Below, piece by piece: positions 8,501-26,141 of a DNA stretch of 38,544 nt. A model generated the notes under the pieces. The model was given only the letters and a program-made list of their open reading frames with translations, was not told the DNA's origin and searched no databases. A program made the position numbers and the translations under genes. The stretch is from a virus. The stretch lies in the IMG/VR virus record IMGVR_UViG_3300017917_001353, positions 1-38,544 of that record. One strand, given 5' to 3'. Positions within the stretch are counted from its first letter, which is position 1. Every line of letters starts with the position of its first letter.

Positions 8501-11015
8501 AAGTCTTAGTGCAAACTTTTCTATCACGGTTCAACCTGTTCCTATTGTAATCAATACTGGGACCAAACGAGTTGTATATCTTAGAAATCAAACTATTACT
8601 CCATTCGTTCCGTTATCTGCATCTGGCGGCAGCGGAGTGCTAACGTATTCGATTAATCCTCCTCTGCCAGAAGGACTAACCCTTAACCCTAGCACAGGCG
8701 CATTGTCAGGAAACACTGGACTGTATATGAAGTCTACATTGTTTACAATGACAGTGGCAGATCAATTAGGACAATCGAAAAACTATCAGTTCTCAATTAA
8801 GATAGCATCAGAACTGAACTTAATTGAATCCGAAGATCAAAATCTTGTACATGATGCTTTATTCAGCATTATGGGTACGACTGCTACAGGCTACGGTGCA
8901 GTATTAATTGGCGACCCAGTTGACCCCGGCCAACTAGTTGAAGCAGATGAATGGAATGAGTTGTTGATGGACGTTGAAAGATGTCTAATACATCAGAATG
9001 GTACTTCAACAAATAACATCATTGCTGCGAGTACAGGTAGCATTGTAGACTTTGCTACACCTGCTAGGATGTACACCACAATTCAGTTCTTACAAAAGAA
9101 CATTGATCAAGTACACCCAAGTCAATTAGATTCGTTTACCTACAACACAAATCAATTGAGTCCTGTTTATTGGACATCTACTAACTATTCTAGTACCGCT
9201 ACTATGGTCGCCGGTAATGGTTACATGACAACCATTAACTGGACATGGTTCTATGAAAATCAACTTCGTTATTTCTTTAACCTAGGTGGCACACTACAAC
9301 CTCAAATTAAGATTGCAGAACCAACTGGGGCAAATGCTAAGAAAGGTTGGAAAGACCTAATTGCCGCTGCCAACCAAGTTGTATTTGGAAAAGAAGAATT
9401 CCTTCAAGCACTGTCTAACCCTAACAAGACATTTATCTACACTGTGGTAGGCAGTGGTGCAGCAGGCGACGCAAAAGGAAAGGTTATAGAAACCAGAAAG
9501 ACAAAGATCATTAGTGAGAAGTACGGCAAACGAATTATCTATAAGAATAAGGATGCTAAAAACTACTCTGCTAATGCACTAACTGTTACATTCAGAGTAA
9601 TGGGTAGTACCATCGTAGGTTCTATGAACTTCGTTGCAGGTCTAGCACTTAAGAAGGCAGGTCCTAAGAAAAAGACTGGTAAAGAAATTATCAAGTACAA
9701 TAAGAAAAATAACAAGAAACATATTTTCTTTGGAAAGAAAGTTATTGATATCTTTACCAAGAAGATCATTGGTAAGTACATTGGTGTTAGAGTTAGACTA
9801 GAAACAGACTTCAAGACAACATACTCTACCGGTGCGAATGGAGGCATCGCTGCACAGATTCCACAGACACAATTGATTGGTAATTATGTTAGTGCGGCGC
9901 CTAGCCCTGTGCCAGAGTTCGTGATGGGCGTAGGAGATACAGAATCGCAGATGATCGTGTTGAGAAACAACAGCACATTTACCTGTGAAGTTTCTGACAT
10001 TGTTCTTAGCGGCTATACGACAGGAACGGTTACCCCTACAACATTAACAATACCTGCGTTCAGCAGCGGCACATTTAGTTTATCCTACACAGGATCACAT
10101 GCTGGACATCATAAAGGTCTAGTTGACGTCTTATGTAACGTAAACAGACTGACACTGTTTACAGAAGTTAATGTTGGTAGCACCAATCCTCCGAACCTAG
10201 TACTGACCACATCTACCTACGATGTTATCAGTCAAGACTTCGTTGTTGACCATGCGGGTGGGTATTTCAAGAGCTTCGACTTGAACTTTGTTCCTGGCCC
10301 AGGATTTACCCATACTCCAAAACTTCCAGATACCATAGATTCATTTAATGTTACGTTTAATCCTAAAAATCTAGTGAATGGTGTTTATACTGCGGGTGTA
10401 GAAGTTACAGTTACTCCGTTAGACAGCAGTCAAGAACCGACAGTGTGGACAGTTCCTGTGGCCATTACACTGGCTGTTGAAAATAGACACATTGCAGATT
10501 GGACAAGTTGCAAACTAGGCAATAACACGAAACTAGGTTTGAGTTATGATATCATCGGAGGCAGAACATATCTAACAGCAGGTATTGGTCTGGGTTCTCC
10601 GTCTATTGCAGAGCTAGGTGTTGCTGAGTCTAATTTTGATTCTTGGAGCGAAGTCTATAGAATTCCTCTCGAAGCAACTACACGAAGGATTTATTCTAAA
10701 GACTATAGAATAAAGGCTGCTGAAGATTTTGTCTACGGCGAATACTTTGGTGTTGGAAGTGCAAGAGGTAGTATACTAACCTGCAACTATGATGGTAAAG
10801 GAAACCTCGAAGTGCTAATGAACACAGTCTATACAGTTCCTGGACAAAATACCAACGAAGTGTTAGACCTAAGTACAGCATTTAGATACTATGACAGCAG
10901 ACGCAGTGCTCAGTTACAGCAGTTGAGCGGACTAACACAAGGTGGCCAGTGCTATGTGTTTAATGGATTTGAAAGATCCGGCGATCTGATGCTAAACCTA
11001 GTGCTACCAAATTAA
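5559..11015 (+). CDS. Giant virion protein with subtilisin-like protease domain and He_PIG repeats, 1818 aa
   Basis: Predicted structural (neck/tail/fibre) protein with an embedded S8-type serine protease. Residues 1-85 resemble an inhibitory propeptide (VYLLDDNEAAQLSQHPDVKF). Residues about 150-590 hold the protease: Asp166 in VIVGDEG, His286 in GVHGTPCAG, oxyanion Asn427 in AAAGNS and Ser561 in NGTSSACPTATG, so the triad is complete. Five Ig-like He_PIG repeats follow at about 640-718, 724-812, 814-902, 905-993 and 996-1083, each with SPxLPxG...TGxxxG. Residues about 1090-1255 (EADEWNELLMDVERCLIHQNG ... WTWFYENQLRYFFNLGG) match a module I associate with T4-type marine phage virion proteins. 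Lys-rich and beta-sandwich stretches complete the C-terminus. A late-type box lies upstream. Whether the protease acts on the virion, itself or host surface proteins is unknown. Confidence 0.85.
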   Translation: MSEKKYYTIGATTPEAWERIHAVLTQDGTLDDNIPPRSVECVDLKEHSPTRAVYLLDDNEAAQLSQHPDVKFIELDRSKYPELFPSPPNEDFHYGNRYTAPTKNHRDIIAGGYPNPVTTADINRSGFQVLRGSTRKNPWATATSVVSSRIPNVTGTGKDVDVIVGDEGCWFGHVEFANNTGTGPADYIGGNPLPGNGTCDLLDLVLDGPYYIDPAWFNANPGTRLMTRWDGTIVPTETAARAWWSNAAQRSAQFASAGTVAIPSYYTRADCNGSNTSKPTYPDGVHGTPCAGQTYGRTHGWAYNANKWFVNAYGNYGLWPVDNYFDVMKIFHQTKPINPTYGNKNPTISSNSWGYRATQGSTGYYYFRQGTSGTGGVAYSSKPAFMQYLGSTGDGGRFKGEMIDNGLTTAGDEMIAAGVIFVAAAGNSNQQQVTSDHPNYNNYWSSSPSTPLTSATHNEFGESCYNTTNRRGFPQHIGKYYSGTATIYPAINIGALDDDYAPGSKERKVNYSDMGNDIDVFTPGDGTISANYGSGLLIPRYDQRTEPGSITSYDARFNGTSSACPTATGLIATILENNRTWTWQNVRNWLHDLTPHTSSTFYIGVEPSTATDPSWSDLNSLQGAAPRVLYNASLVATTAINFVSLNAYSPASTQIPVTASGGTGVYSYSISPALPAGLSYSSTGTLSGTPTVLSSTATYTVTVDDQDDVASATFSLNVYATPLVSQLTTSTVKIQPLTTTTAFTPVTVTGGNGAKTFGISPALPGTLTINAATGQINPGVVTTLFTTTFTVTVSDQVGQSTSKQFTLISEAPPLSLSVDYPTVRINPFVTILPIAPVSTVGGFGTKTYSISPSLPGTLTFNTATGEIGAGVVTTLFTTTFTISVSDQVGQSSSTQFDLVSEIVPLSVNTQVASRTVLALQPISPYVPVAAGGGSGVLTYSVTPALPAGIVFNTATGQVSGTPSVLVNNSTHLVTVSDQLGQSLSANFSITVQPVPIVINTGTKRVVYLRNQTITPFVPLSASGGSGVLTYSINPPLPEGLTLNPSTGALSGNTGLYMKSTLFTMTVADQLGQSKNYQFSIKIASELNLIESEDQNLVHDALFSIMGTTATGYGAVLIGDPVDPGQLVEADEWNELLMDVERCLIHQNGTSTNNIIAASTGSIVDFATPARMYTTIQFLQKNIDQVHPSQLDSFTYNTNQLSPVYWTSTNYSSTATMVAGNGYMTTINWTWFYENQLRYFFNLGGTLQPQIKIAEPTGANAKKGWKDLIAAANQVVFGKEEFLQALSNPNKTFIYTVVGSGAAGDAKGKVIETRKTKIISEKYGKRIIYKNKDAKNYSANALTVTFRVMGSTIVGSMNFVAGLALKKAGPKKKTGKEIIKYNKKNNKKHIFFGKKVIDIFTKKIIGKYIGVRVRLETDFKTTYSTGANGGIAAQIPQTQLIGNYVSAAPSPVPEFVMGVGDTESQMIVLRNNSTFTCEVSDIVLSGYTTGTVTPTTLTIPAFSSGTFSLSYTGSHAGHHKGLVDVLCNVNRLTLFTEVNVGSTNPPNLVLTTSTYDVISQDFVVDHAGGYFKSFDLNFVPGPGFTHTPKLPDTIDSFNVTFNPKNLVNGVYTAGVEVTVTPLDSSQEPTVWTVPVAITLAVENRHIADWTSCKLGNNTKLGLSYDIIGGRTYLTAGIGLGSPSIAELGVAESNFDSWSEVYRIPLEATTRRIYSKDYRIKAAEDFVYGEYFGVGSARGSILTCNYDGKGNLEVLMNTVYTVPGQNTNEVLDLSTAFRYYDSRRSAQLQQLSGLTQGGQCYVFNGFERSGDLMLNLVLPN
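7719..8270 (+). repeat. Recent tandem duplication of an Ig-like module (repeats 2 and 3)
   Basis: Inside the giant gene, repeats 2 and 3 are much closer to each other than to the rest: both have TTLFTTTFT, VSDQVGQS and the same strand order. At DNA level a 25-nt segment is identical at 7891-7915 and 8164-8188, offset 273 bp (91 codons, in frame). Confidence 0.8.
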
Positions 11016-11024
11016 ATTTGTCAC

Positions 11025-11056
11025 AAGCGTACTCTAAGATAAATTAGAGTATGCTT
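11025..11056 (+). promoter_or_regulatory. Stem-loop enclosing a start codon
   Basis: AAGCGTACTCTA (11025-11036) pairs with TAGAGTATGCTT (11045-11056) over 12 bp with a single G-U pair; the loop is AGATAAAT. The ATG of the next gene (11051-11053) lies inside the 3' arm, and no T-run follows, so this looks like a translational control hairpin or an mRNA 3'-end structure rather than an intrinsic terminator. Confidence 0.6.
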
Positions 11057-13066
11057 GACAACATTCCACGAGTACCCCCAGAAAAAGTTAAATCAGCCAA
11101 ATGGAACGGTGATCCATTAGAGTATGATCTACAACTCTATACTCTAGGAGAAGGCGAGGATGAGTTTTGGGTACTAAATCCAGAATTTGAACAGAGCCAT
11201 ATTCCGTTCTTCATTGATCATATCCCAGACAGTAGAAAGTGTGTAGTCTTTAACTATCAAGGGCAATGGGTCGCCAAAGTTTTTAAAGACGGCTGGTATC
11301 CTTATCACGGCTATGAAAGTATAGAAATATCTATTCCAAAACTAGCATGGTCTCGAAATCCTGATATTGACAGTAGAATGAATTTCAATATCGATCCTAG
11401 GACTACATACAGTCTTGACTTCTGGGATCAAAATTATGAAATGTATTGGGCTATAGATCCGCGTTTCTTTCCTCACGAAGGCGAAGTATGGGTCTACAAA
11501 GCGTCAGTTATCGGTAAAAAAACTACCGGCACAAAGTTTATGGGATACCTAACACCTAACGTCGTTGTTGAACGTAACGACTCTTTGGACTTTCTAGAAC
11601 TAGATCAAGACGAACTATATCCTCCATACTATGATTTAGATAATGAATGCGTATTCATACTAGATAAAAACTTTACAGGCAACGAGATAGTAGAAGTAGC
11701 GTCAATTAAACCTGCATACAAAAAAGTGTCAGGTCGAAGAATAATTGGTACAGTTACTCCGGAAGTCAAAATTAAAATTAATCCAAAGTTAAAAGACATA
11801 AACTTTGACATATCCGATACGATCATCTATTACGACAATCTAGCAAAAGAAAACATTTGGATGTTAGATCACAAATATCTAGGACCAGACGACACTGAAC
11901 TGTGGGCAGTAAAACTTACACTAGTAGATAAGCCTAAAGGAAAAGTAATCGTGGGGGAAATCTCTCCGCAGTTTACACTAGAGTATAATCCAGATCTTCC
12001 TGAATTAATCTATGATCTAGATTTTAAAGCACCTTGGTATGACTTAAAATATGAGCACATGTGGATGCTAGACTCTGACCACACTAGAGATTTACAAGAG
12101 GAAATGTGGGCTGTTAAAGTTAAGGCAACAGATGAGCCAGTAGGAACAAAAATTGTAGGTAGCATTGAACCTTGCGGAGAACTAGAGCTCAACGGTGATG
12201 TGACAGTTCCTTTCGAGTTACCAGAAAACTTTGCAGTTCAATACTACGATCTTGCATATGAACATGTTTGGGTATCTAGAGAAGGCGAAGAAAAGATTCA
12301 GGTCGCTCGTTTATGCTATGTAGAAGAACCGCGCGGCCGAAAAGAATTTGACGTCACTGAAGAACTCAACGAAGATCAGTTAGATGTTATCTTTATCAGT
12401 TACAACGAACCAAATGCAGAAAACAATTGGAATCGCGTAAAAGAAAAAGCACCCTGGGCTCAGCGTGTTGACGGCGTAAAAGGCATCCTAAACGCACATA
12501 AAGCCGCAGCCAAAAAGTCCAGAACAGACATGTTCTATGTAGTAGACGGTGATGCACATTTAATAGACACTTGGAAATTTAACTATCGTCCTAGTATTTT
12601 TGATAGAGACTGTACCTATATTTGGGCAGCAGTTAATCCATTAACTAATTTGACTTATGGCCACGGCGGTGTTAAACTGTTTTCTAAAGAGAAATTATTA
12701 AAATTAAAAAAGTGGAGAACTTTGGACATGACTACCTGCGTCTCTGAAAAAATCAAAGTAATGAGCGAAGTAAGCAACGTAACAGAGTTCAACACAGATG
12801 AATTCAGTGCTTGGAAGACTGCATTCAGAGAATGTGTAAAACTCTCTTTGAATGTCCAAACAGATCATGCAAATGAAAACCACAAAGTGCGATTAGATGC
12901 ATGGCAACATATTGATGCTAACTTATCTTTCTCCCGTGCTGCCATGGCGGGTGCTCTGCAGGGTATGGAGTTCTTTAAAGAACACGAGTTTGATGCAGAT
13001 GCTTTAACTAAGATCAACGACAGAGAATGGTTAGAGCAAAGATATAATACAACCTATAAGAAATAA
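11051..13066 (+). CDS. Repeat-containing protein with C-terminal GT-A-like glycosyltransferase domain, 671 aa
   Basis: Two parts. Residues about 20-430 are built from roughly 80-residue repeats whose signature is YDL-x-YE-x-x-W-x-LD followed by E-x-WAVK and VG-x-I-x-P (for example YWAIDPRF, IWMLDHKYL, MWMLDSDH, HVWVSREG). Residues 444-671 look like a GT-A nucleotide-sugar transferase: LDVIFISYNEPN, a VDGVKGILNAHKAAA segment and FYVVDGDAHLI with a DxD-type motif at Asp499/Asp501, followed by YGHGGVKLFS. The start lies in a hairpin and has no strong SD. Position directly after the giant fibre-like gene suggests it glycosylates or attaches to it; that is inference. Confidence 0.7.
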   Translation: MLDNIPRVPPEKVKSAKWNGDPLEYDLQLYTLGEGEDEFWVLNPEFEQSHIPFFIDHIPDSRKCVVFNYQGQWVAKVFKDGWYPYHGYESIEISIPKLAWSRNPDIDSRMNFNIDPRTTYSLDFWDQNYEMYWAIDPRFFPHEGEVWVYKASVIGKKTTGTKFMGYLTPNVVVERNDSLDFLELDQDELYPPYYDLDNECVFILDKNFTGNEIVEVASIKPAYKKVSGRRIIGTVTPEVKIKINPKLKDINFDISDTIIYYDNLAKENIWMLDHKYLGPDDTELWAVKLTLVDKPKGKVIVGEISPQFTLEYNPDLPELIYDLDFKAPWYDLKYEHMWMLDSDHTRDLQEEMWAVKVKATDEPVGTKIVGSIEPCGELELNGDVTVPFELPENFAVQYYDLAYEHVWVSREGEEKIQVARLCYVEEPRGRKEFDVTEELNEDQLDVIFISYNEPNAENNWNRVKEKAPWAQRVDGVKGILNAHKAAAKKSRTDMFYVVDGDAHLIDTWKFNYRPSIFDRDCTYIWAAVNPLTNLTYGHGGVKLFSKEKLLKLKKWRTLDMTTCVSEKIKVMSEVSNVTEFNTDEFSAWKTAFRECVKLSLNVQTDHANENHKVRLDAWQHIDANLSFSRAAMAGALQGMEFFKEHEFDADALTKINDREWLEQRYNTTYKK

Positions 13067-13068
13067 TT

Positions 13069-14463
13069 ATGAGCGAAGACTCGAGCCTGCACAGCAGGAT
13101 AAGAACTGTCATACCTATTATTAACGAAGTTAGTCAAACGTTTTGTCTAGCCAAGTGGTATCACACAACTCTGTATCTACAGACTGGAGAAACACACAGT
13201 TGTTATCATCCTCCTCCACATAAGATCAGCATCAAAGAGATCAGTAAAGATCCTAGCGCATTGCACAACACCTTGGCTAAGAAAATAGAACGCCAGGAAA
13301 TGTTAGTAGGTGTGCAGACAAAAGGTTGCCAGTATTGCTGGAACGTTGAAAACCTAAAAGGCGATCACCTAAGTGATAGACATCTGCGAAGTGCTGCGAT
13401 CTATACAGAAGATAGGTTCAACACTGCGAGTAGAGGCCCATGGGATCAAAATATTAATCCCGAATACGTTGAAATCAGTTTCGGTAACGAGTGTAATTTT
13501 AAATGCGGTTACTGCCATCCTAAGGCCAGCAGCCGTTTTTACAACGAGATTAAACAACACGGTCCTGTTGAAACAGTAAAGAATCATAGATGCGATATTG
13601 ACTGGCTCAAAATCTACGAGCGTGAAGAAGAAAACCCCTATGTTGATTCTTGGTGGAAGTGGTGGCCAGAACTGCGTAAAGAGTTAACCATCCTTCGCAT
13701 TACAGGTGGGGAACCGTTAATGCATTCTAGCACATGGAAGATGTTTGACAGCATACAAGAAGAACCTCTACCTTGGTTAGAATTAAACATCAATAGTAAC
13801 CTAGGTGTAAAGCCTGCTCTAGTTGATAAAATGATCAGCAAGGTTAACAGTATTATTGATAACAACGGAATCAAAACATTCAAACTGTTTACCAGCATTG
13901 ACACTTGGGGTCCTCGTGCCGAGTATATTCGCACAGGACTAGACTTATCTATATGGGAACGCAACCTCGATGCATACCTAACACAGACCGGCCAGCCTAT
14001 TAGTTTTATGATTACGTTCAATATTATGTCTGTTACGACATTTAAAGAATTGTTATCTAAGATATTAGAATGGCGCGGCAAGTATAATGCTTACAACAAA
14101 ACAGAAAAGCCTCAGATGATAAGGTTCGATACTCCGTATCTAAAAGAGCCGTTGCAGTACGACATTAACATTCTTCCTAAAGATGCGTTCATGCCTTATA
14201 TGGAAGATAGTCTACAGTTTATGAAAGACAACTTAGACGACAACGATCTTTCTAAGTTTACCACTGTAGAATACGAAAAGTTTAGACGGGTCGTCGACTA
14301 TATGAAAAGTGCAACATACTCTGACGAACAGTTGCTTGAAGGACGTCGGGACTTTTACAATTGGTTCAATGCATTAGATTCAAGACGAGACACAAACTTT
14401 ACGCAGGTGTTTCCGGAGATGAAGGACTTTTACAATCAGTGTGGATTACTAGCCAATGAGTGA
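13069..14463 (+). CDS. Radical SAM protein with N-terminal twitch-like Cys motif, 464 aa
   Basis: Radical SAM enzyme: cleaves S-adenosylmethionine at a [4Fe-4S] cluster. The cluster motif is C142-x3-C146-x2-C149 (ECNFKCGYC), followed by RITGGEPLM. Before the core lies an N-terminal twitch-like auxiliary region with TFCLAKWYH (C26), SCYHPP (C45) and GCQYC (C87, C90), which may hold a second cluster. The C-terminal segment has the pattern DSRRDTNFTQVFPEMKDFYN, shared with the next two genes (NEDFVSVFPEL, EDWINSIPEL). Substrate unknown. First of three consecutive related genes; it overlaps the next by 8 nt. Confidence 0.88.
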   Translation: MSEDSSLHSRIRTVIPIINEVSQTFCLAKWYHTTLYLQTGETHSCYHPPPHKISIKEISKDPSALHNTLAKKIERQEMLVGVQTKGCQYCWNVENLKGDHLSDRHLRSAAIYTEDRFNTASRGPWDQNINPEYVEISFGNECNFKCGYCHPKASSRFYNEIKQHGPVETVKNHRCDIDWLKIYEREEENPYVDSWWKWWPELRKELTILRITGGEPLMHSSTWKMFDSIQEEPLPWLELNINSNLGVKPALVDKMISKVNSIIDNNGIKTFKLFTSIDTWGPRAEYIRTGLDLSIWERNLDAYLTQTGQPISFMITFNIMSVTTFKELLSKILEWRGKYNAYNKTEKPQMIRFDTPYLKEPLQYDINILPKDAFMPYMEDSLQFMKDNLDDNDLSKFTTVEYEKFRRVVDYMKSATYSDEQLLEGRRDFYNWFNALDSRRDTNFTQVFPEMKDFYNQCGLLANE

Positions 14464-15670
14464 TACGAATAAATTATTAACTGAAAGTAAAGTGTTTTGC
14501 ATGGCTCCGTGGATTCATGCACACACTAATCCTATCGGTGATGCACATCCTTGCTGCATTGCAAAGGGTATCTTTGCACGGCAAGCAGACTTAAACGGTA
14601 TTGTTAATTCCGAAGGCATGAAGTCTCTAAGACAAGACATGCTTAACGGTAAGGAAAACTCTGCCTGTGTTGCTTGTTACAAACACGAAGAACAGAAGTT
14701 AGACAGTTTCCGCCAATGGTTCAACAGAGAGTACGGAAGCCATGCTTCTTATTCTATCGCAAACACACGTAAAGACGGAACGTTAGATCATTTTAAAATG
14801 CGTTACTTTGATCTACGGTTCAACAACATCTGTAACTTTAAATGCAGGACCTGTAACGCTAGTTTTAGTAGCCAGTGGGAACAAGAGGACCTTAAGCGTA
14901 AGGTGCCTTGGGCAAGAGTGTTACCTCGTAATACTGAAATACTCAGTGAAGTATTAGAACATGTTCCTTACATGGAACATGCTTACTTTGCAGGCGGCGA
15001 GCCTTTGATTACAGAAGAACATTACATCTTACTAGAAGAAATGATTCGACTAGGTAAAACTGATATTAAACTAAAATACAATTCTAATGTCAGCAACCTA
15101 AAGTTCAAGAACAAAGACATTGTCGAGTTGTGGTCTAAGTTCAGTAACCCTATTGAAATGGCAGCAAGCATTGATCACTTTGGTGCTAAGGCCGAATATA
15201 TTAGAACAGGTACTAACTGGGAACAAGTTGAACGCAACCTATTGAAGTTGCGTGACACACCAAACGTTAAGTTACAATTAAATTCTGTTGTAAGTATCTT
15301 TAACTATGTGTCCTACGGCGAATTTGTATCTTACCTAGATATGGTAGGCATACTTGCACCGGAGTCTAGAATTGAGCTTACTCCTTACAACATGGTAGAC
15401 CCACTGCACTTAGCAGCACAGGCTCTACCGATTGATTTAAAACAGCAGGGAAAGCAGAACCTGCTATCTGTAATTGCCAAGATGCAGGGATTAGGTTATA
15501 GAAGTTTCCAGACTGGTATTTTAAAGCAGGCAATTGATTGGGTCGAGGCCGCGAATACCTGGGATCAAAACAAAGATAAATTTAAGCAGGAAATTAAGGA
15601 TATTGACACAGTCAGGAACGAAGACTTTGTCAGCGTATTCCCTGAACTGAAAGGACTGTTAGATGATTGA
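14456..15670 (+). CDS. Twitch-type radical SAM protein, 404 aa
   Basis: Second paralog. N-terminal auxiliary cysteines C15 (VFCMAPWIH), C33/C34 (HPCC) and C71/C74 (CVACY); radical SAM motif C126-x3-C130-x2-C133 (ICNFKCRTC), then YFAGGEPLI. The layout FCxxPWxH, PCC, CxxCY, RWxNxCNFKCRxC corresponds to the family annotated as twitch domain-containing radical SAM proteins, seen in phage and bacterial sugar-gene clusters, with no defined reaction that I know of. It overlaps both neighbours by 8 nt, so the three genes are likely co-translated. Confidence 0.9.
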   Translation: MSDTNKLLTESKVFCMAPWIHAHTNPIGDAHPCCIAKGIFARQADLNGIVNSEGMKSLRQDMLNGKENSACVACYKHEEQKLDSFRQWFNREYGSHASYSIANTRKDGTLDHFKMRYFDLRFNNICNFKCRTCNASFSSQWEQEDLKRKVPWARVLPRNTEILSEVLEHVPYMEHAYFAGGEPLITEEHYILLEEMIRLGKTDIKLKYNSNVSNLKFKNKDIVELWSKFSNPIEMAASIDHFGAKAEYIRTGTNWEQVERNLLKLRDTPNVKLQLNSVVSIFNYVSYGEFVSYLDMVGILAPESRIELTPYNMVDPLHLAAQALPIDLKQQGKQNLLSVIAKMQGLGYRSFQTGILKQAIDWVEAANTWDQNKDKFKQEIKDIDTVRNEDFVSVFPELKGLLDD

Positions 15671-16919
15671 TAAGATACCAGAGTCTCCTGTATTCTGTAT
15701 TTTGCCTTGGTTACATTTTCACGCCTTACCAAACAAAAAGGTTCTTCCCTGTTGCATGGCTAACAGCGATAAGCCTGTAAGTTCTACAGATAAGGGTAGC
15801 ATCATTGAAATGATGAATACCAAAGAATATAAGCAGTTGCGTAAGAACATGCTATCAGGTACATTCAGCGATGTTTGTAACAGGTGCTATGATGTCGAAC
15901 GAGTAGGACAATGGAGCCTTCGTCAAAGTGCAAATGCTGTTCGAGGTAACAAGAATCTGGATTTGGTTAATTCTACCAAAGAGGATGGCAGCATAGATGA
16001 ATTTAAACTACAATATGTAGATATACGATGGAGCAATATCTGTAACTTCAAGTGTCGCAGTTGCGGACCGGAGTTTAGTAGTCTACACGCAAAAGAGTTT
16101 ATTGATAACAAGGGCGGTGTTGAGAAGTTGCAGCAATACTTCAAAATGGATAACATGGTTGTGAGCTGTAATGAAGACGGCTCCTTCTTTGATAAAGTTG
16201 TTCCATATTTGAAAGACACTGATGAAGTTTATTTCGCAGGCGGCGAAAGTTTAATTACTTCTGAGCATTACAAGATGCTAGACGAATGGATTAGATTAGG
16301 TAACGATGACATACGTCTAACCTACACTACAAACTTCAGCGTATTCAAACACAAAGGTAAAGATGTTATTGAGTATTGGAAAAAGTTTAAGAACATTGCT
16401 ATATTTGCTAGCCTCGATGGAATGGGTAAGAACCTTGAATACCTACGCCACGGTGCAGATTGGACAGAAATAGAAAACAATATCAAGATGCTCAAAGAAC
16501 AGGTTCCACATGTTAAGTTTAATCTAACGCCGACGATCAGCGTTTGGAATGCATGGCATTTCCCTGACTTCTTTGAGTACATGGTAAAGAACAATTATAT
16601 TGATCCAACCAGTGAAGATTGTCTGCGTCTAAACATGTTAACCAATCCTTGGTGGGCCAATGTAGCCATATTACCAAGTTTCTACAAAGACAGATTGTTC
16701 TTAAAGTGGAACAAGATAAAAACTAATTCCAACTATAGTGTAAGTGTTCGTAACGCGGCTGCTATGGTTCAAGAAGCACTAAAAGGTGAAACAAGAGTCG
16801 AAGGTCTAAAGGAGTTTTTTGATATTCAAAAGGAAACCGATGAACTCAGAAAAGAAGATTGGATTAATTCGATACCAGAACTAGAGGACGTATACGAATG
16901 GGTGGAAGAAAACTCTTAA
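15663..16919 (+). CDS. Twitch-type radical SAM protein, 418 aa
   Basis: Third paralog, closest to the preceding gene: C12 (VFCILPWLH), C30/C31 (PCC), C72/C75 (CNRCYD), C127-x3-C131-x2-C134 (ICNFKCRSC), then YFAGGESLI in which Pro of the usual GGEP is Ser. It has the same C-terminal NSIPELEDVYEW-type ending. The GGEP-to-GGES change lies near the SAM amino group site, so activity is likely but not certain. It overlaps the next gene by 22 nt. Confidence 0.88.
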   Translation: MIDKIPESPVFCILPWLHFHALPNKKVLPCCMANSDKPVSSTDKGSIIEMMNTKEYKQLRKNMLSGTFSDVCNRCYDVERVGQWSLRQSANAVRGNKNLDLVNSTKEDGSIDEFKLQYVDIRWSNICNFKCRSCGPEFSSLHAKEFIDNKGGVEKLQQYFKMDNMVVSCNEDGSFFDKVVPYLKDTDEVYFAGGESLITSEHYKMLDEWIRLGNDDIRLTYTTNFSVFKHKGKDVIEYWKKFKNIAIFASLDGMGKNLEYLRHGADWTEIENNIKMLKEQVPHVKFNLTPTISVWNAWHFPDFFEYMVKNNYIDPTSEDCLRLNMLTNPWWANVAILPSFYKDRLFLKWNKIKTNSNYSVSVRNAAAMVQEALKGETRVEGLKEFFDIQKETDELRKEDWINSIPELEDVYEWVEENS

Positions 16920-17881
16920 AGATTGATCATAACGAGCCATACTTGGATGTAGTATGGCAAGTAAGCAATTTTTGTAATTACAAGTGCAGTTATTGTAATC
17001 CCGGTAACTACTGTGGTGATAGTCGTAACGACGATAACCTAATCACCTACATCAATAACCTAGAAATTATTACAGACAAATATCTAGAACTAGGATATAA
17101 GAACTTTAAGTTCTTCTTCAGTGGAGGAGAACCTACATTATGGCGTAACCTTATTCCTATCATAGAATGGCTGCGTGAGAAGTTGCCGAATACTGTTGTA
17201 GCAGTTAACACTAATTTCTCTAGACCTCTAAGTTGGTGGAAGCGACACTATCATTTGTTTGATGATGTAGTCGCCAGTTTCCACGTAGAATATGCTGATA
17301 AGGAAAAGTATCTAGAGAATGCTAAATTTCTCTGCGATAAGTTTAATTACTTTAGTTGCAAGATGCTTATGCACGAGGAGCGTTTCTGGGAAGTAGCAGA
17401 GTTCGGAAAGAAACTAAAGGACGAACTGCCTAACTATTTTATTGAGTGGACTCCGTTATTTGATGAAATGAGTTTAAATGCAGGCCCTTGGGAATACAAA
17501 GATCCTAATAAGACACAGTTCTTAAAAGAACACTCAATTGATCAGCAGTTCACTATTCCTAAGCCTTACCTTAAGAAACCTTTTTACTCAGAAGCCTACT
17601 GGGATAACGGAGAAAAGACCGGAGTATACAGTAACGAGATTATCTTAGAAAGACAGAACTTTTTTAAAGGTTGGGAATGTAGCATCGGTGACAGTATCTG
17701 GATCAACCAGATCGGACAGGTCAGTATGGGAACCTGCGGACAGATAAAAGTCTTAGGTAACATACTGTGGGACACACTAGACATCGGACCTAAGAAAATA
17801 ATCTGTCAAAAGGATCACTGCCACTGCGGAACAGATATTTTGATTCCAAAAAGAAAAGTAATAGAAATTGTTAAGGAGTAA
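16898..17881 (+). CDS. Radical SAM protein with C-terminal SPASM-like cysteines, 327 aa
   Basis: Radical SAM core close to the N-terminus: C26-x3-C30-x2-C33 (FCNYKCSYC), with C39 soon after, then FFSGGEPTLW. The C-terminal 60 residues hold cysteines in ECSIGDSIWIN, MGTCGQ, IICQKDHCHCG, a SPASM-like arrangement that may bind extra Fe-S clusters. Start ATG 16898, with GAGG about 10 nt upstream, inside the end of the previous gene. It is a different subfamily from the three preceding genes because it lacks the N-terminal twitch region. Substrate unknown. Confidence 0.87.
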   Translation: MGGRKLLKIDHNEPYLDVVWQVSNFCNYKCSYCNPGNYCGDSRNDDNLITYINNLEIITDKYLELGYKNFKFFFSGGEPTLWRNLIPIIEWLREKLPNTVVAVNTNFSRPLSWWKRHYHLFDDVVASFHVEYADKEKYLENAKFLCDKFNYFSCKMLMHEERFWEVAEFGKKLKDELPNYFIEWTPLFDEMSLNAGPWEYKDPNKTQFLKEHSIDQQFTIPKPYLKKPFYSEAYWDNGEKTGVYSNEIILERQNFFKGWECSIGDSIWINQIGQVSMGTCGQIKVLGNILWDTLDIGPKKIICQKDHCHCGTDILIPKRKVIEIVKE

Positions 17882-17883
17882 TT

Positions 17884-20109
17884 GTGGATTTTGGTTTACA
17901 GGCGCTCAAGAAAAATAAAATAGAAATACCGGAGCGTCCTTCTACTGATGTTGAAGATGCACGCCATCGAGCAATGATGGATGCTATCGCACCTTATGCA
18001 AAAAAGGTACAGCAGTCTAACGCAACACCGGTCTACATAGATTATAAAACAAGAAAGACAAAGTTAGTTTTAGTTATGTGCCCTGAGTGGGCGCCTGACA
18101 TGCCTCCTTTCAACCTAGCAAGACTAAGTGGTATTGCAAAGACTGCGGGCTATGAAACAAACATATTAGATCTCAATATCAGAGCCTACAACGAGTTTGA
18201 AAAGGTTTGGTGGCCTGAACGTAGGATTCCGTTCAGGCTTTGGAATCCCAGTGCCACATGGCATTGGTTAGGAGATAACTATTACAAATACATACATCCG
18301 TTGTTAGGACCGTTGCTTGAACAAGCAATCGAAGAAGTGCTGGCGTTAGAACCCGATGTTGTGGGGTTTACACAATACTACACTAGCGAACAACCTACCA
18401 ACTGGATGGCCGCTGAAATAAAGCGCAGAGCACCCCACATTAAAATTGCCGTTGGCGGAAGTAATGTACAAAAGGATTGGTTCTCCGCACCGGACTGCTA
18501 TGACTACGTTGTAGTAGGAGAAGGCGAACAGGCCCTTTTAAACATTCTAGACGAGATTGAAGAAAGCAAAGCCGAACCGGGGCAGAAACTAATTAAGCAA
18601 CCTGAAGATCAACGTATCAGCATTAACGATCTGCCTATGCCTGATTACGAAAGTATCGACTTTAGTCAATACAAAGTTCCTAACGGAGTTAACAGTGAAA
18701 TCAGCAGAGGTTGTACAGCAAAGTGTACATTCTGTGAAGAAACACACTTCTGGAAGTATCGTCAGCGTCAAGCAGTTGATCTTATTAAAGAAGTAGAATG
18801 GCTCTACTACAATAAAGGCACAGATGTTATTTGGTTCATTGACAGTCTAGTGAACGGTAATCTTAAAGAACTACGTGCATTCTGCAAAGCAGTTGAAGCA
18901 AAGAAGTTGCCTATACATTGGACAGGCTATGCTCGTTGCGACGGCCGTATGGACCTAGAATACTTCAAGGATCTAAAAGCAGGTGGTTGCATTATTCTTA
19001 ACTACGGTATTGAATCGGGTAGTCAGAAAGTACTCGACGATATGGCCAAGGGCGTAACTATTGCAGAGATGGAACAGAACTTCCGTGACGGTAAGTCTGT
19101 AGGAATCTATGCTGCAACTAACTGGATAGTTGGGTTTCCTACGGAACAGCATCAAGACTTTGCCGACACAATGACTCTTTTGTGGCGCATCAGGAATATG
19201 AATGTTAATAATATTGGCGCTGGCATGGGCTTTGGTCTAGGCCCAGAAACTATTGTTGGACAGAATCCTGCTAAGTTTAACCTGAGTGACTTCAGTTACA
19301 TGAATCACTGGATTACCAAAGATTTCAAACTAGGCGGTACACACGTTATGTCTAGAGTCAAAGCATTCTATACATTCATTGATATGATGCGCGGCACAAC
19401 TGCATTAGACTTTGGATATCCTATTCGTGACAATCTAGAAAAGGAACATTACAAGATTACACTAGATAGGCCCGGAAGGTTAAATGAAAATGTAAACTAC
19501 GAAAAGTTTGACTATAACATTATCAAACCTAACATCAATCCGTTTGCAGATAGTCTTGTAAATGAGATGTGGCCTTTCTTTAGATTGCTGTGGAGAGCCC
19601 GCGGCGGTTATGAAGCAGAAATTTACTTTAATCCTGAGATAGATCTAAAGGAGTTTGGTAGCCAGTACGGTCCTGGAATGTACAATGCCGTACTTAAATT
19701 TAAGATAACAGAAGATGGCAAATGGACTGCTGACTTTAAGTTTAAGTTTGAACAGGTTAAACTACCGCCGTATCAAGAAAAAGATCCAGACCGTTGCGGT
19801 CCTTTCTACTTTCAAGACTTTACACGTCTAAAGAGTAATACAGCCGCTCGTGCTAGAAAACTAGCCAAGCCCGAGTGGTCTACTGAACATGGTCGCAGCG
19901 ATATGGAGTTCTGGGAATTGATACAGGAAGAATTTAAGTTGAACAAAGAAATTGACTTTAGTTTCGAACATCACTATCAGGATACAGGGGATTGGGGTAA
20001 CTGGAAAGACTATGAAGTAGAAGTGTCTAATGTTTCTGCTATGGCTGTTCCTGAGCGCCCATCAGTATTTTCAATTCCGTTAGATAAGATCAAAAGGGCT
20101 AGTCAATGA
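17884..20109 (+). CDS. B12-binding-type radical SAM protein, 741 aa
   Basis: GTG start with AAGGAG 5-6 nt upstream. Residues about 60-235 form a cobalamin-binding-type Rossmann domain (KLVLVMCPEWAPDMPPFNLARLSG, VVGFTQYYT, IAVGGSN, YVVVGEGEQALL). No DxHxxG motif is visible, so any cobalamin would bind without that histidine. Residues about 270-480 are the radical SAM core: C277-x3-C281-x2-C284 (GCTAKCTFCEE), then WFIDSLVNG and NYGIESGSQKVLD. A long C-terminal region (about 240 residues) is unrecognised. B12 radical SAM enzymes often methylate unactivated carbons or remodel sugars or lipids; the reaction here is unknown. Confidence 0.88.
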   Translation: MDFGLQALKKNKIEIPERPSTDVEDARHRAMMDAIAPYAKKVQQSNATPVYIDYKTRKTKLVLVMCPEWAPDMPPFNLARLSGIAKTAGYETNILDLNIRAYNEFEKVWWPERRIPFRLWNPSATWHWLGDNYYKYIHPLLGPLLEQAIEEVLALEPDVVGFTQYYTSEQPTNWMAAEIKRRAPHIKIAVGGSNVQKDWFSAPDCYDYVVVGEGEQALLNILDEIEESKAEPGQKLIKQPEDQRISINDLPMPDYESIDFSQYKVPNGVNSEISRGCTAKCTFCEETHFWKYRQRQAVDLIKEVEWLYYNKGTDVIWFIDSLVNGNLKELRAFCKAVEAKKLPIHWTGYARCDGRMDLEYFKDLKAGGCIILNYGIESGSQKVLDDMAKGVTIAEMEQNFRDGKSVGIYAATNWIVGFPTEQHQDFADTMTLLWRIRNMNVNNIGAGMGFGLGPETIVGQNPAKFNLSDFSYMNHWITKDFKLGGTHVMSRVKAFYTFIDMMRGTTALDFGYPIRDNLEKEHYKITLDRPGRLNENVNYEKFDYNIIKPNINPFADSLVNEMWPFFRLLWRARGGYEAEIYFNPEIDLKEFGSQYGPGMYNAVLKFKITEDGKWTADFKFKFEQVKLPPYQEKDPDRCGPFYFQDFTRLKSNTAARARKLAKPEWSTEHGRSDMEFWELIQEEFKLNKEIDFSFEHHYQDTGDWGNWKDYEVEVSNVSAMAVPERPSVFSIPLDKIKRASQ

Positions 20110-20846
20110 AAGAGAAGTTGCTGCTAATATCAGGGTGTAGTCATGCTGCCGGATCTGAAATCGACGGAACCTCTGATAGCGCATACAATAGACAACACAG
20201 TTTTGGTAATCTACTTGCAGGTAAACTTGGACGCAGGCCTGTTAACATTGCATTGAGCGGCTCTACCAATCAAGGAATTGCAAGAACTGTGTTAGAGTGG
20301 ATGGATAAGAACTATGATCCAGACACACAGGATCTTATGGTGCTAACTTCATGGACCGAAAGCACACGTATGGAGATTCCTATGACTCGTCCAACACACT
20401 ACGAGCAATGGAATACCTCTAGTGACTTCCTGTCAGAGCAGTCTAGAGGATTCTTTAGAGTCAACTTTGGCTATAAAGGAACACACAAGGATGAACAAGA
20501 GATCATAGCACGATGCCATTCCTTTATGGTTGATCCTATGAATCAAGTGTATCTTGAAATACTCAGCGCCTCTATTGTTTTGAAGATGCAATACTTTTTC
20601 AAATTGCACAACATACCTTATCTAATGTGCAACACCATGCACATGTTCAGTGACGACGATCATCTTAGATTTTATCTAAGCCTCATTGATCAAACTACCT
20701 ATTTCAATATGACTGATGGCAAGGAAGATTTTTATTGGAAGTACGATCGTCTGGGATATAAAAACACAAAGGCAACCTACTGGCATCATGGAGAAGAGCC
20801 GCACAGTCTCTATGCAGACGAACTGTTTTCCTTCATCAATAAATAG
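20106..20846 (+). CDS. SGNH/GDSL hydrolase-like protein, 246 aa
   Basis: Likely esterase or acyl-transfer enzyme of the SGNH fold. Block I is LLISGCSHAAGSE (Ser after GC), block III-like SGSTNQGIARTV has the Gly/Asn pair, and the C-terminal EEPHSLYADEL supplies a candidate catalytic His. No signal peptide. It starts in an ATGA overlap with the radical SAM gene. First of four SGNH-like proteins in this cluster; the others begin at 30124, 31019 and 31714. It may add or remove an O-acyl group on a sugar (inference). Confidence 0.65.
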   Translation: MKEKLLLISGCSHAAGSEIDGTSDSAYNRQHSFGNLLAGKLGRRPVNIALSGSTNQGIARTVLEWMDKNYDPDTQDLMVLTSWTESTRMEIPMTRPTHYEQWNTSSDFLSEQSRGFFRVNFGYKGTHKDEQEIIARCHSFMVDPMNQVYLEILSASIVLKMQYFFKLHNIPYLMCNTMHMFSDDDHLRFYLSLIDQTTYFNMTDGKEDFYWKYDRLGYKNTKATYWHHGEEPHSLYADELFSFINK

Positions 20847-20853
20847 GTATATA

Positions 20854-22284
20854 ATGAAACACAGAATACCTTTCTTTTACGATTACGTTTTACCTAACAC
20901 AGTTTTACCAAATGCCCTTCCACTCGAAATGGGCATTGTAAACTTTATTCATACACACTATTCAGATAGATTAGATACTGAAAGTTTCTTTGACGAAGAC
21001 TTAGACATACCGTTAAACCCTTTTAAGCGCATGTTCGGCGACAGAATGGGCGATATGCCTCAAAGCCTACGCATGAATGGTTCTTACCTTAGAAATCCCT
21101 GCTTCAATGATCGAGTAGACATCTACGAAAATAGCCTTTACTTTGGTAAAAGAGATCTAGTACAGCAAGGGTACAATCGTTATGTTTACCCTATTAAGGT
21201 TACACTACACTTCTCTAGATTTACCGGCACGGACGATGTAGGCAGCAAGTTAAACGGCGAGTACTTCTGGAAACATATCAGTGAAGAAGCACTCAAAGAT
21301 CTACGTGCGGGCCATGCTGTTGCTTTCTTAGACTGGTCTAACGAAAACTTCATTGATCAAACAGACTATGCTAATCTACACTACGCTATTAGATCTAGCG
21401 GCATTCCAAAAGAGAATATCATTCTTTCTGTGAACAGTTTTAATGCACAGCAGGTCTACGAGTCTTGGTTCGCTCCTCACGAACAGCGCCTACAGGTACG
21501 AAACTTGCCTTATATTATCAATCAGATATCCTACTTCTATGCTACAAACAAAGAAAGTAGGCTCGATGAAAAAACATTTAGAGAAAGCAAAGATAGAATT
21601 AGAGACAACTACTTTGTATTTCCTATGCGCCGAGGTAGAGATCATAGATTTGCAATGCTGTTCAAGTTCGCATCAGACGGAACACTAGACAAAGCAGATT
21701 GGTCCTGTTTAGACAACTCTGGTAATTTCGATTCTGCATTTTCTAAAGCAAATTGCTTTCCTCTAGGTTACGATATTGATGCCTGCAGAAAAGCCTACGA
21801 ACATACTCCTAAGACTCTAAACACAGAACAGGGCAGTACATTTTATACTGTTCACGGATGGAACGATAAACACGCACAGCCTAGTGCCAACGCCTACTTC
21901 TATGTTGCAACTGAAACCTATGTTCACGGTATCTACAAGTCAATGACTGAAAAGGTATTCAAACCTGTTGCAAACTTTAATCCTTTCTTGTTAGTGTCCT
22001 TCCCGGGTGCTTTAGAAGAACTTAGAAACTTAGGCTTTAAAACATTTAGCGGCTTCATTGACGAAAGTTATGATCTAGAACAAGATCCTACTAAACGTAT
22101 GGAAATGATTGCAGCAGAAGTTAAGCGCCTTTGCAGTATGAGTAAGGAAGAACTACACAACTGGTATTGGCAGATGGAAGACATCCTAGTACATAACCAT
22201 AATCTTATTATGACTATCTACCAGACTGAAAAGCACAGTACAGAGTTTATTAACTTCTTGCACAATAGAGTAAGGAACCCCTAA
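20854..22284 (+). CDS. Putative glycosyltransferase-like protein, paralog 1, 476 aa
   Basis: The start is set at ATG 20854 (MKHRIPFFYDYVLPN); a longer reading frame upstream would run over the preceding gene out of its frame. AGG lies 6 nt upstream and an AATAAATA box 9 nt upstream. The C-terminal third carries MTEKVFKPVANFNPFLLVS, then LRNLGFKTFSGFIDESYD and DPTKRMEMIAAE with LHNWYWQMEDILVHN, nearly the same as in the proteins at 23437 and 24738. The E-K-x-F-x-P...PF...G...GF-x-TF pattern resembles the donor-site region of GT10/GT47-like GT-B enzymes. I call it a putative glycosyltransferase; the reaction is unproven. Confidence 0.6.
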   Translation: MKHRIPFFYDYVLPNTVLPNALPLEMGIVNFIHTHYSDRLDTESFFDEDLDIPLNPFKRMFGDRMGDMPQSLRMNGSYLRNPCFNDRVDIYENSLYFGKRDLVQQGYNRYVYPIKVTLHFSRFTGTDDVGSKLNGEYFWKHISEEALKDLRAGHAVAFLDWSNENFIDQTDYANLHYAIRSSGIPKENIILSVNSFNAQQVYESWFAPHEQRLQVRNLPYIINQISYFYATNKESRLDEKTFRESKDRIRDNYFVFPMRRGRDHRFAMLFKFASDGTLDKADWSCLDNSGNFDSAFSKANCFPLGYDIDACRKAYEHTPKTLNTEQGSTFYTVHGWNDKHAQPSANAYFYVATETYVHGIYKSMTEKVFKPVANFNPFLLVSFPGALEELRNLGFKTFSGFIDESYDLEQDPTKRMEMIAAEVKRLCSMSKEELHNWYWQMEDILVHNHNLIMTIYQTEKHSTEFINFLHNRVRNP

Positions 22285-22829
22285 TGAACTACAAATTAAA
22301 TCAGTGGGACCACTTTGATACCTCGTATCTAAAAACCTTTGGGCAGGAAGTACCTGTCTATAGTCCCAGTGTCTATAGAGAATATAGAGGAGAGATCTTT
22401 ACTACATTCCATAGCACAGCACACCCTGTTATGCAGTTATTACCAGAACAGGTAAACGTACACGGCCGCTTTAGTAAATCATTCAAAGGTGTCTTAAGGG
22501 GATTACACTATGACACAAAGACTTGGAAGTTAGTACAGGCTCTAGTGGGAGAAATATATCTTGTGGTGCTAGATGTTAGACAAAACAGTCCAACATATGG
22601 AAAGTGGGAGTCCTACATTATCAGCGAACGTACTCGAGATCAAGTGTTGGTTCCTCCGGGCTTTGCCAACGGACACTTTGCACTTACGGATTGTATATTT
22701 CATTATAACCTTTTCTACGAAGGAGACTATGTAGACGAAAATGCACAGGGTGTAGTGAAGTGGAATGATATTAGATTTGAAATTGAATGGCCTACAGACA
22801 CACCCATTCTGCAACGGAGAGACAGATGA
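22284..22829 (+). CDS. rmlC: dTDP-sugar 3,5-epimerase-like protein (RmlC family), 181 aa
   Basis: A cupin enzyme that epimerises C3/C5 of a 4-keto-6-deoxy nucleotide sugar. Visible RmlC signatures: RGEIFTTF (35-42), SKSFKGVLRGLHYD with catalytic-type His75, VQALVGEIYLVVLDVRQNSPTYGKW, VPPGFANGHFAL and GVVKWND...FEIEWP. Length 181 is typical. Start follows TAATG, stop overlaps the next start (ATGA). No glucose-1-phosphate thymidylyltransferase (RmlA) or 4,6-dehydratase (RmlB) is obvious here, so the substrate must come from the host or from the epimerases at 26131-29718. The symbol is a family name; a C3-only epimerase is possible. Confidence 0.82.
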   Translation: MNYKLNQWDHFDTSYLKTFGQEVPVYSPSVYREYRGEIFTTFHSTAHPVMQLLPEQVNVHGRFSKSFKGVLRGLHYDTKTWKLVQALVGEIYLVVLDVRQNSPTYGKWESYIISERTRDQVLVPPGFANGHFALTDCIFHYNLFYEGDYVDENAQGVVKWNDIRFEIEWPTDTPILQRRDR

Positions 22830-23452
22830 TTAATTTAAAGCATTACAGCATAGTACGGGATCATGGCATGACAGCAGATGATCTAATAAATTTTGAAAAC
22901 AAAATAGTTGAACATTGGGAAAATGCTAAAATTAGAGGCCCGGTGCACCTTTCTAACGGAAATGAAGGGCAACTGATAGAGATATTCAAACGCATTAGAA
23001 CAACAGATTGGGTATTCAGCACATGGCGCAGTCATTATCATGCATTGTTAAAGGGCATAGATCCTAACTGGATCGAAAGCGAAATCCTTGCAGGTCGTTC
23101 TATTACACTGTGCAACATTGACGAAAAGTTTTATTCTAGCGCCATTGTAACTGCGACACTGCCTATCGCTCTAGGCACCGCTCTTTCGATTAAAAGATCC
23201 GGCGGTACTGATAAGGTGTGGGTGTTTGTAGGCGATATGAGTTTTGAAAGTGGTATATTCTATGAAGTACACAAGTATGCGAGAAACTTTGATCTTCCCC
23301 TTTATTTTGTTGTGGAAGATAACGGTGTATCTACATACACACCTACTGAAATAACATGGAATATTAAAAGAGATATTCCTAAAGATGTAATTTACTACAA
23401 CTACAAATCAAAATATCCTCACTACGGCTCAGGTAAATGGATAGCGTTCTAA
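22826..23452 (+). CDS. Thiamine-diphosphate enzyme E1 alpha-like subunit, 208 aa
   Basis: Start set at ATG 22826 (ATGA overlap with rmlC; GGAG 6 nt upstream), not at the more distant upstream Met. The protein matches the TPP-binding half of 2-oxoacid dehydrogenase E1 alpha / transketolase: HLSNGNEGQ, WRSHYHALLKG, GTALSIKRSGG and the diphosphate motif VGDMSFESG...EDNGVST, Gly136-Asp137 to Asn166. It is shorter than a cellular E1 alpha (about 320-400). It lacks a pyrimidine-binding partner of its own; the candidate beta subunit is at 32586-33128. Together they may carry out a decarboxylation/ligation on a sugar precursor (inference). Confidence 0.8.
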   Translation: MINLKHYSIVRDHGMTADDLINFENKIVEHWENAKIRGPVHLSNGNEGQLIEIFKRIRTTDWVFSTWRSHYHALLKGIDPNWIESEILAGRSITLCNIDEKFYSSAIVTATLPIALGTALSIKRSGGTDKVWVFVGDMSFESGIFYEVHKYARNFDLPLYFVVEDNGVSTYTPTEITWNIKRDIPKDVIYYNYKSKYPHYGSGKWIAF

Positions 23453-24762: not shown

Positions 24763-26141
24763 TTTATTCAACTTGGGTTAATTGTGCCCAAGGCCATCTT
24801 CCCGTTGCCAACGGAAATCATTTAACCGTAGCAAAATGGATAGAAAGTACGATAAATGAAACGGCTAATCCATTCAGCATCTACGATAGATTTTCAGAAT
24901 TAGAATCTACATTTCAAGTCAAGGACTCGGGAATAGTATACAGACATTCAAACCTGTATTATTATTTTAAAAAGCACTACGGCACTGAAAATATTATTTC
25001 ACATGACCGGATTGCCGACGACGATAGTTTATATTTTTATCCTTACGAAGTAGAAGGACAGAATATCAATTACTTCTATTCTGGATTTAAGTTTACCCAA
25101 GACGGACAGCAGATAGAATATAATTTTGTTGATTCATTACCTCCAGTAGTGCTAGAACATTTGCGATCCGGTAAATTAAAGATCTTAATAGCCAGTACGA
25201 CAGAACCAACATATGGTAAAGATACATTAGCCTATATTGAAAAAGGATTAAGTAGTATCGGGATTGATCCCTCGAACATATATGTGGCGTTCGGTAACAC
25301 GCTTACCAACTACTCGGGTAGATTAAAACAGGTAACTGCCCATGCTTCGCTGCAACAACAAGCAGAGATTGCAGACAAGTATCCTATAGAAAGAAGTTCT
25401 CTAGGTTACCCTTGCGACTATCCTCGTGTACACGAATTAGACAATACTAGGATTAGACCTAAGAGATTCCTGTGCTGGAATAGAACAATGAATAGACCTC
25501 ATAGGTTAGCCATTGCTTATATAGCACTCAAGTACGACCTATTAAGTGATAGTACGTTTAGTTTCATACACGGGGTATCTCGCCATCATATCGATGACCT
25601 GCGTTCTCTAATTGATGACTCGTACAATGACATCTTAATACTTGCGTCGAAGATAGTAAGCATGATCCCGTATGAAGTAGATACACAGGATCTAACACTA
25701 GATGGCAAGCAAGGCTTCCAAACAAACGAAAACAACAAGAAAGAATTTTATGCAGACTCTTATCTGCATATAACTTCGGAAACTTGCTTCGATGCACACG
25801 GTAGTCCATTTATGTCAGAGAAGACCTTCCGACCTATTTTAAACCTGCAACCGTTTATCTATATAGGAAACTATAAGGGACTTGAAGAACTACGACGGTT
25901 AGGATTTAAAACATTTGATGGTTATATAGATGAGAGTTACGATCTTGAACCTGATCCAAAAAAGAGATTTGCTATGATTACAGCAGAGATTCTACGCTTT
26001 GCAAAAATGTCAAAGGAAGAACTACACAATTGGTATCATTCAGTTACTGACATACTGATCTATAATCAACAACACTTCTTAACATTTAAAGATTTTAATC
26101 CATTACAGAATATATTTGAAGGGCACGATCATGGAGTTTAA
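24738..26141 (+). CDS. Putative glycosyltransferase-like protein, paralog 3, 467 aa
   Basis: Third member of the family: MSEKTFRPILNLQPFIYIGN, LRRLGFKTFDGYIDESYD, DPKKRFAMITAEILRF, LHNWYHSVTDILIYNQQ. It shares an N-terminal start (YKLVYSTWVNC, DRFSELESTF) with paralog 2 (VYSNWYTANG, DRLDDLETRF), so these two are a closer pair than paralog 1. It overlaps the previous gene by 25 nt and the next by 11 nt. Confidence 0.6.
   Translation: MATSKYKLVYSTWVNCAQGHLPVANGNHLTVAKWIESTINETANPFSIYDRFSELESTFQVKDSGIVYRHSNLYYYFKKHYGTENIISHDRIADDDSLYFYPYEVEGQNINYFYSGFKFTQDGQQIEYNFVDSLPPVVLEHLRSGKLKILIASTTEPTYGKDTLAYIEKGLSSIGIDPSNIYVAFGNTLTNYSGRLKQVTAHASLQQQAEIADKYPIERSSLGYPCDYPRVHELDNTRIRPKRFLCWNRTMNRPHRLAIAYIALKYDLLSDSTFSFIHGVSRHHIDDLRSLIDDSYNDILILASKIVSMIPYEVDTQDLTLDGKQGFQTNENNKKEFYADSYLHITSETCFDAHGSPFMSEKTFRPILNLQPFIYIGNYKGLEELRRLGFKTFDGYIDESYDLEPDPKKRFAMITAEILRFAKMSKEELHNWYHSVTDILIYNQQHFLTFKDFNPLQNIFEGHDHGV

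Follow-up and report, generated by a model that had tools for sequence, protein, structure and literature searches.

Why should a phage encode five radical S-adenosylmethionine (rSAM) enzymes one after the other? Such enzymes are oxygen-sensitive, need several iron-sulfur (Fe-S) clusters and are unusual in viruses, and the question is raised by positions 13069–20109 of the stretch of DNA analysed here (the window), which is 38.5 kb out of the 102.5-kb virus record IMGVR_UViG_3300017917_001353 (a fragment). This region holds five intact, adjacent rSAM open reading frames (ORFs), all on the plus strand: three related enzymes with an N-terminal twitch domain (tA, tB and tC), an enzyme with SPASM-like C-terminal cysteines (D) and a B12-binding enzyme (E). 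Our answer, which we consider on balance probable, is that the five genes belong to a phage sugar or glycan tailoring cassette that works by radical steps, probably for the virion or the host surface.

The original prediction described the five genes as lying back to back with small overlaps, and the layout bears this out. tA (13069–14463, 464 aa), tB (14456–15670, 404 aa), tC (15663–16919, 418 aa) and D (16898–17881, 327 aa) successively overlap by 8, 8 and 22 bases, followed by a 2-base gap before E (17884–20109, 741 aa, GTG start). The tight operon extends both ways: a plus-strand gene for a protein resembling GT-A glycosyltransferases (GTs) (11051–13066) ends 2 bases upstream of tA, and the gene at 20106–20846 overlaps E by 4 bases.

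Three scans of IMG/VR yielded about 200 loci, a sample that, being anchored on cassette members, gives no rate of cassette carriage among phages. Among 61 distinct tA instances with room around them, 59 have the GT-A-like gene before and tB, tC and D after; of the two exceptions, one lacks the GT-A-like gene at that spot only and the other has lost the rest. When contigs were anchored on D, 57 of 61 kept the row, as GT-tA-tB-tC-D in 18, with two copies of tB in 31 and with three in 8, while the remaining four are cut or have the GT gene doubled. Even marine loci at about 30% identity retain the gene set, as GT-tA-tA-tC-tC-(others)-(E)-D. E follows D directly in only 10 of the 61 contigs; elsewhere, where found, it lies 3–9 kb downstream. 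The conserved unit is GT, tA, one to three tB, tC and D, with E a frequent extra, so that the description of five consecutive rSAM genes holds for the window and not for the conserved unit. With 59 of the 61 distinct instances keeping the order, the row is more than chance; the loss of order proposed as a refutation was not seen.

These counts also bear on the view that the genes share an operon or regulation and act on different substrates, as independent auxiliary metabolic genes in a hypervariable island with no common pathway. The mobile position of E, next to D in just 10 of the 61 contigs, the variation of tB from one to three copies and the mosaic character of comparable islands, as described in PMC7029224, would suit such an arrangement; however, in the sampled loci GT, tA, tB, tC and D are almost always together (59/61), down to about 30% identity, and we regard separate substrates as quite unlikely.

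Each of the three twitch proteins, predicted from the start to be related, scores far over the curated cut-off (170 bits) of the NCBIfam family NF033640 (N_Twi_rSAM), with 307, 361 and 357 bits for tA, tB and tC. In single-protein scans the Pfam model Radical_SAM (PF04055) matches all five enzymes, tB, D and E over the curated cut-off and tA and tC just below it, and all five carry a CX3CX2C motif that is invariant in homologues. In tA, tB and tC a four-cysteine twitch domain (residues 26/45/87/90 in tA and 15/34/71/74 in tB) lies N-terminal to the rSAM domain (cysteines 142/146/149 and 126/130/133, respectively). None of the 132 non-redundant twitch proteins (full-size ORFs of 350–520 aa, at most 85% identical to each other) lacks any of the seven cluster cysteines, and GGE, N211, S238, D240, R250 and R387 (tB numbering) are likewise found in every one.

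The fourth enzyme, D, has five invariant C-terminal cysteines (261, 280, 303, 308 and 310; compared in 23 sequences sharing as little as about 40% identity) besides its three rSAM cysteines. Its description as SPASM-like holds to that extent; the seven-cysteine SPASM motif (CX9-15GX4C-gap-CX2CX5CX3C-gap-C; PMC6231123) is absent, D having five cysteines with other spacing, and there is no PF13186 match. E, as predicted, is of the B12-binding type, with PF02310 and PF04055 both over cut-off, and it has profile matches in the PDB to TokK, OxsB and CysS. These B12-dependent rSAM enzymes share the domain pair and profile similarity with E, a putative C-methyltransferase-type enzyme, whereas E scores below every curated cut-off for B12-rSAM C-methyltransferase subfamilies (best TIGR03975, 112 bits against 282). 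With no cysteine lost in the 132 twitch homologues, which is also the outcome of the check on key cysteines, the five enzymes look functional.

The relationships of the twitch proteins point the same way. In a tree computed by a quick method with SH-aLRT (Shimodaira–Hasegawa-like approximate likelihood ratio test), tA forms its own clade, tC and the freshwater tB proteins fall in separate groups, and marine rows are found inside both tA and tC. Labels change 6 times on this tree, against about 54 with shuffled labels, with some clustering expected since each protein was labelled after the window protein that it matched best; the tree has a few long branches, and the marine extra copies are placed uncertainly. 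As judged from the sequences, tA, tB and tC appear to be old, separate lineages that split before the phages did, and thus distinct ancient paralogues rather than recent copies. That each was retained argues for separate tasks, and stepwise action on one substrate, as originally suggested, would fit both the conserved linkage and the retained lineages. A non-functional or selfish expansion by tandem duplication, which tandem paralogues with overlapping starts might suggest, is extremely unlikely given the age and separateness of the lineages and the fact that neither the cluster cysteines nor GGE and further residues of the active site vary among the 132 proteins. Rather, a fixed order of at least four rSAM genes from lake to sea, with every cluster ligand intact, implies strong selection on the product.

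We favour a sugar or glycan as the target because of the sugar-gene-rich context, the GT-A-like partner, a sugar-nucleotide gene inside the marine core and the GT8 neighbours in Vibrio phage K566. The partner (11051–13066) carries its GT-like domain C-terminal to repeats and is homologous to the 318-aa protein in the same position in locus L169 (GTcore, E = 3e-24), whose AlphaFold2 (AF2) model (pLDDT, the predicted local distance difference test score, 79) has as top PDB matches GT-A glycosyltransferases and nucleotidyltransferases (WrtF, HddC, hyaluronan synthase, BcsA and ArnC). The GT-A-like protein has no Pfam, PHROG or NCBIfam match, and GTcore has no sequence-profile match. Downstream in the window, the plus strand encodes a dTDP-4-dehydrorhamnose 3,5-epimerase (RmlC) homologue (22284–22829; PF00908, E = 3e-33) and three NAD-dependent sugar epimerases/dehydratases (26116–27111, 27812–28783 and 28786–29718; PF01370, E = 5e-33, 1e-46 and 4e-29). 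Among the 61 D-anchored contigs, epimerase-type genes occur in 45 and UDP-sugar dehydrogenase genes in 30, and the relatives' cassettes also hold DegT aminotransferase, carbamoyltransferase and second B12 rSAM enzyme genes. In marine cassettes (L144), a fused cytidylyltransferase/mannose-phosphate-isomerase gene lies between GT and tA, i.e., inside the core. In the cultured Vibrio phage K566, an independent case, two GT8 genes and a GT4-like gene are interspersed among four N-twitch genes.

The twitch profile further aligns to the twitch domain of BtrN, the rSAM dehydrogenase of butirosin synthesis (PDB 4m7s/4m7t), with E = 1.4e-4 and all four cysteines in register; this is the sole PDB profile match of the twitch enzymes. 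As BtrN is a cyclitol dehydrogenase with an auxiliary cluster held by four cysteines (PMC9012708), we counted this match for a sugar target. The BtrN twitch domain is C-terminal to the rSAM domain, in contrast to the N-terminal position in tA, tB and tC, and the likeness is one of sequence.

Several results weigh against sugar tailoring. The fold matches of GTcore have TM-scores of only about 0.3, which makes for a weakly based GT-A assignment; and the transferase-like genes GT1–GT3 have no Pfam or PDB support. The match to BtrN is restricted to the twitch domain, which is also found in peptide-modifying enzymes. The AF2 model of tC (pLDDT 92) matches rSAM folds in the PDB, the nearest of them a mixed set (tetraether synthase, CteB, anSME, BlsE, viperin and MoaA), and the models with which E scores highest, all below cut-off, are those of C-methyltransferases for ribosomally synthesized and post-translationally modified peptides (RiPPs). 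Finally, 126 neighbour genes of the cellular relatives, which come from Bdellovibrionota, Flavobacteriales and others, have mixed functions with few glycosyltransferases; because of this mixture the tally was not used as support. A reading as viperin was rejected, the NCBIfam matches being weak (31 bits against a cut-off of 180).

Some of these results would also be expected if the enzymes modified a peptide or virion protein, for example an adjoining tail fibre or adhesin, by RiPP-like or post-translational crosslinking, epimerisation or C-methylation, the sugar genes being mere neighbours. Twitch and SPASM domains often occur in enzymes that modify peptides (PMC6231123), anSME and CteB are among the structural neighbours of tC, and E scores best with the RiPP C-methyltransferases TIGR03975 and ApyD, below cut-off. 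There are also genes nearby for a 2-oxoglutarate (2OG)-Fe(II) oxygenase (27108–27812, plus strand; PF13640) and Asp/Arg hydroxylase-like proteins, and a conserved small protein of 115 aa is encoded directly before GTcore in 45 of the 61 D-anchored contigs (e.g., L169:3538–3882). This protein, however, is missing from the window and its clade and is without precursor-like features; being conserved over its whole length, it was set aside as a precursor peptide. Pfam scans of the cassette found no RiPP recognition element (RRE) or PqqD domain, although precursors can escape such scans, and the constant partner is GT-A-like, with a sugar-nucleotide enzyme inside the marine core and GT8 genes interleaved in K566. 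We therefore hold a peptide or protein target to be unlikely, if less so than separate substrates.

The Fe-S operon noted at the outset is real: 15 kb downstream of the rSAM row (35118–36131), the plus strand encodes an IscU/NifU-type scaffold (35118–35507; PF01592, E = 2e-53) and two A-type carriers (35491–35811 and 35808–36131; PF01521, E = 7e-20 and 1e-20). If each twitch enzyme takes two clusters and D and E take one or more apiece, the expected demand is at least eight, in line with the more than five foreseen. Of 23 related records, 9 have A-type carriers, and among the six that exceed 150 kb five do; rSAM genes and A-type carriers are likewise paired in Tara T4-like genomes, according to PMC5332604.

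If sugar tailoring is correct, the fixed core would combine one GT-A-like protein handling nucleotide sugars with a SPASM-like rSAM enzyme and no fewer than three of the N-twitch type. In every twitch enzyme, four cysteines would bind one auxiliary [4Fe-4S] cluster in addition to the SAM cluster, as in BtrN, which oxidises an aminocyclitol hydroxyl, and the phage IscU and A-type carriers would supply the clusters. Successive hydrogen-atom abstractions on a nucleotide sugar or sugar chain could then bring about oxidation, dehydration or epimerisation, E might add a methylation step, and neighbouring transferases would place the modified sugar on virion fibres or the host surface. The benefit might be, for example, a changed receptor, the shutting out of other phages or a protected virion. 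Gene content and order, cysteine conservation, the orthologous lineages and the linkage to sugar-nucleotide genes are observed; the clusters, the substrate, the order of reactions, the final acceptor and the benefit are the parts of this scheme that we infer. More tentatively, and with rather less than even expectation, a wide group of aquatic phages may carry the whole of a multi-step radical pathway, together with an Fe-S supply of their own, making a sugar not known in their hosts, which consecutive twitch and B12 rSAM enzymes would have oxidised, rearranged or C-methylated, and which would be placed on virion fibres or the host surface.

Multi-rSAM phage modules are already known. The Campylobacter phages CP220 and CPt10 have 11–12 rSAM genes including an exchangeable five-rSAM module (PMC2853527); as here, the module belongs to virulent phages, but theirs is linked to amidinotransferase genes, and tA, tC, D and E have no sequence match in these phages at E = 1e-5. 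In pelagimyophages, rSAM cassettes are acquired amid the glycosyltransferase genes of host-recognition regions (PMC7029224), and a Tara T4-like genome has 12 rSAM genes (PMC5332604). Like the cassette, these aquatic T4-like phages combine rSAM genes with glycosyltransferases or Fe-S carriers; what the available portions of the two papers give is counts and islands, not an ordered GT-tA-tB-tC-D core, orthology or invariant cysteines. A bacterial plasmid carries a block of rSAM, GT and rfbC genes (PMC4267127). K566 and K567 (OZ196521 and OZ196593) place N-twitch genes beside GT8 and GT4-like genes, as the cassette pairs rSAM and GT, but at about 21% identity to tC, in a different order and without D or GTcore. 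NF033640 shares the N-terminal twitch plus rSAM layout of tA, tB and tC, its name implying no reaction, whereas in the window and its relatives three to six paralogues share a fixed operon with D and the gene for a GT-A-like protein.

Among 50,697 records of isolated phages, tA, D and GTcore have no match and tC has only distant ones, to 19 Vibrio phages and to a marine virus from a single cell. The following appear to be new: that the GT-tA-tB-tC-D core is fixed, that it is orthologous between phages of lakes and of the sea, that its cluster ligands are intact, that isolated phages lack it, and that relatives in Bdellovibrionota come with D and GT homologues. Our partial coverage of the literature revealed no earlier description of the ordered core, and one may exist. 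The cassette gives the unassigned N_Twi_rSAM family a testable function, offers a reason for IscU and A-type carriers in these phages and is a lead to new sugar chemistry at the phage–host surface; K566, cultured and with a related cluster, makes the question testable.

Further rSAM genes were observed. A sixth, of the N-twitch type (NF033640, 278 bits), lies outside the window at G000:74095 (region G000:72351–75430; L008:14852–18524), adjoining several small proteins that by eye resemble 2OG-type oxygenases. Many cassettes, as at L068:6099–8024, also encode a second family of B12-binding rSAM proteins, about 640 aa long and nearest to KedN5-type C-methyltransferases (254 bits, cut-off 700). 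The marine phage locus L151 (G019) has 17 radical SAM matches in 58 kb and L149 (G020) 15 in 68 kb, exceeding the 11–12 given in PMC2853527 and PMC5332604. L216, from the Rhodobacteraceae metagenome-assembled genome NAT686, holds a full phage-type core binned as bacterial; it is likely a phage contig and perhaps a host hint.

As to the virus, the 102.5-kb record contains rIIA, virion structural, tail-fibre-like and ribonucleotide reductase genes and is therefore assigned to a tailed phage. T4 Gp23 was not found in it, while 10 relatives score over the Gp23 cut-off, and T4-type membership is accordingly not claimed for this record.

Two accompanying genes on the plus strand are conserved. The product of 20106–20846, with homologues in many cassettes, is SGNH-hydrolase-like by motif only, and Pfam, NCBIfam and PDB profile searches gave no match for it. 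MT33125 (33125–33694, 190 aa) is by eye a possible methyltransferase, has no family match and is probably part of the system; homologues sit in or near the rSAM core in phages and bacteria, preceding tA in L045, L051 and L055 and lying close to twitch genes in some ten cellular loci (including L252–L256). In PDB profile searches of GT1–GT3, the SGNH-like protein and MT33125, the sole match, alpha-1-acid glycoprotein, was judged to be chance.

Directly before the cassette (5559–11015), at a place taken by adhesin-like proteins in relatives, is a gene for an 1818-aa protein that has subtilase and Ig-like domains. The GT-A-like protein contains several N-terminal repeats (11051–12400) of about 65 aa with many W, Y and D residues, repeats that are missing in most relatives; a 1542-aa protein of L068 (17664–22289) has other aromatic-rich repeats. 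An apparent split thiamine pyrophosphate enzyme has its E1 dehydrogenase-like part at 22787–23452 and its transketolase pyrimidine-binding part at 32586–33128, the two lying 9 kb apart and flanking the sugar genes at both ends.

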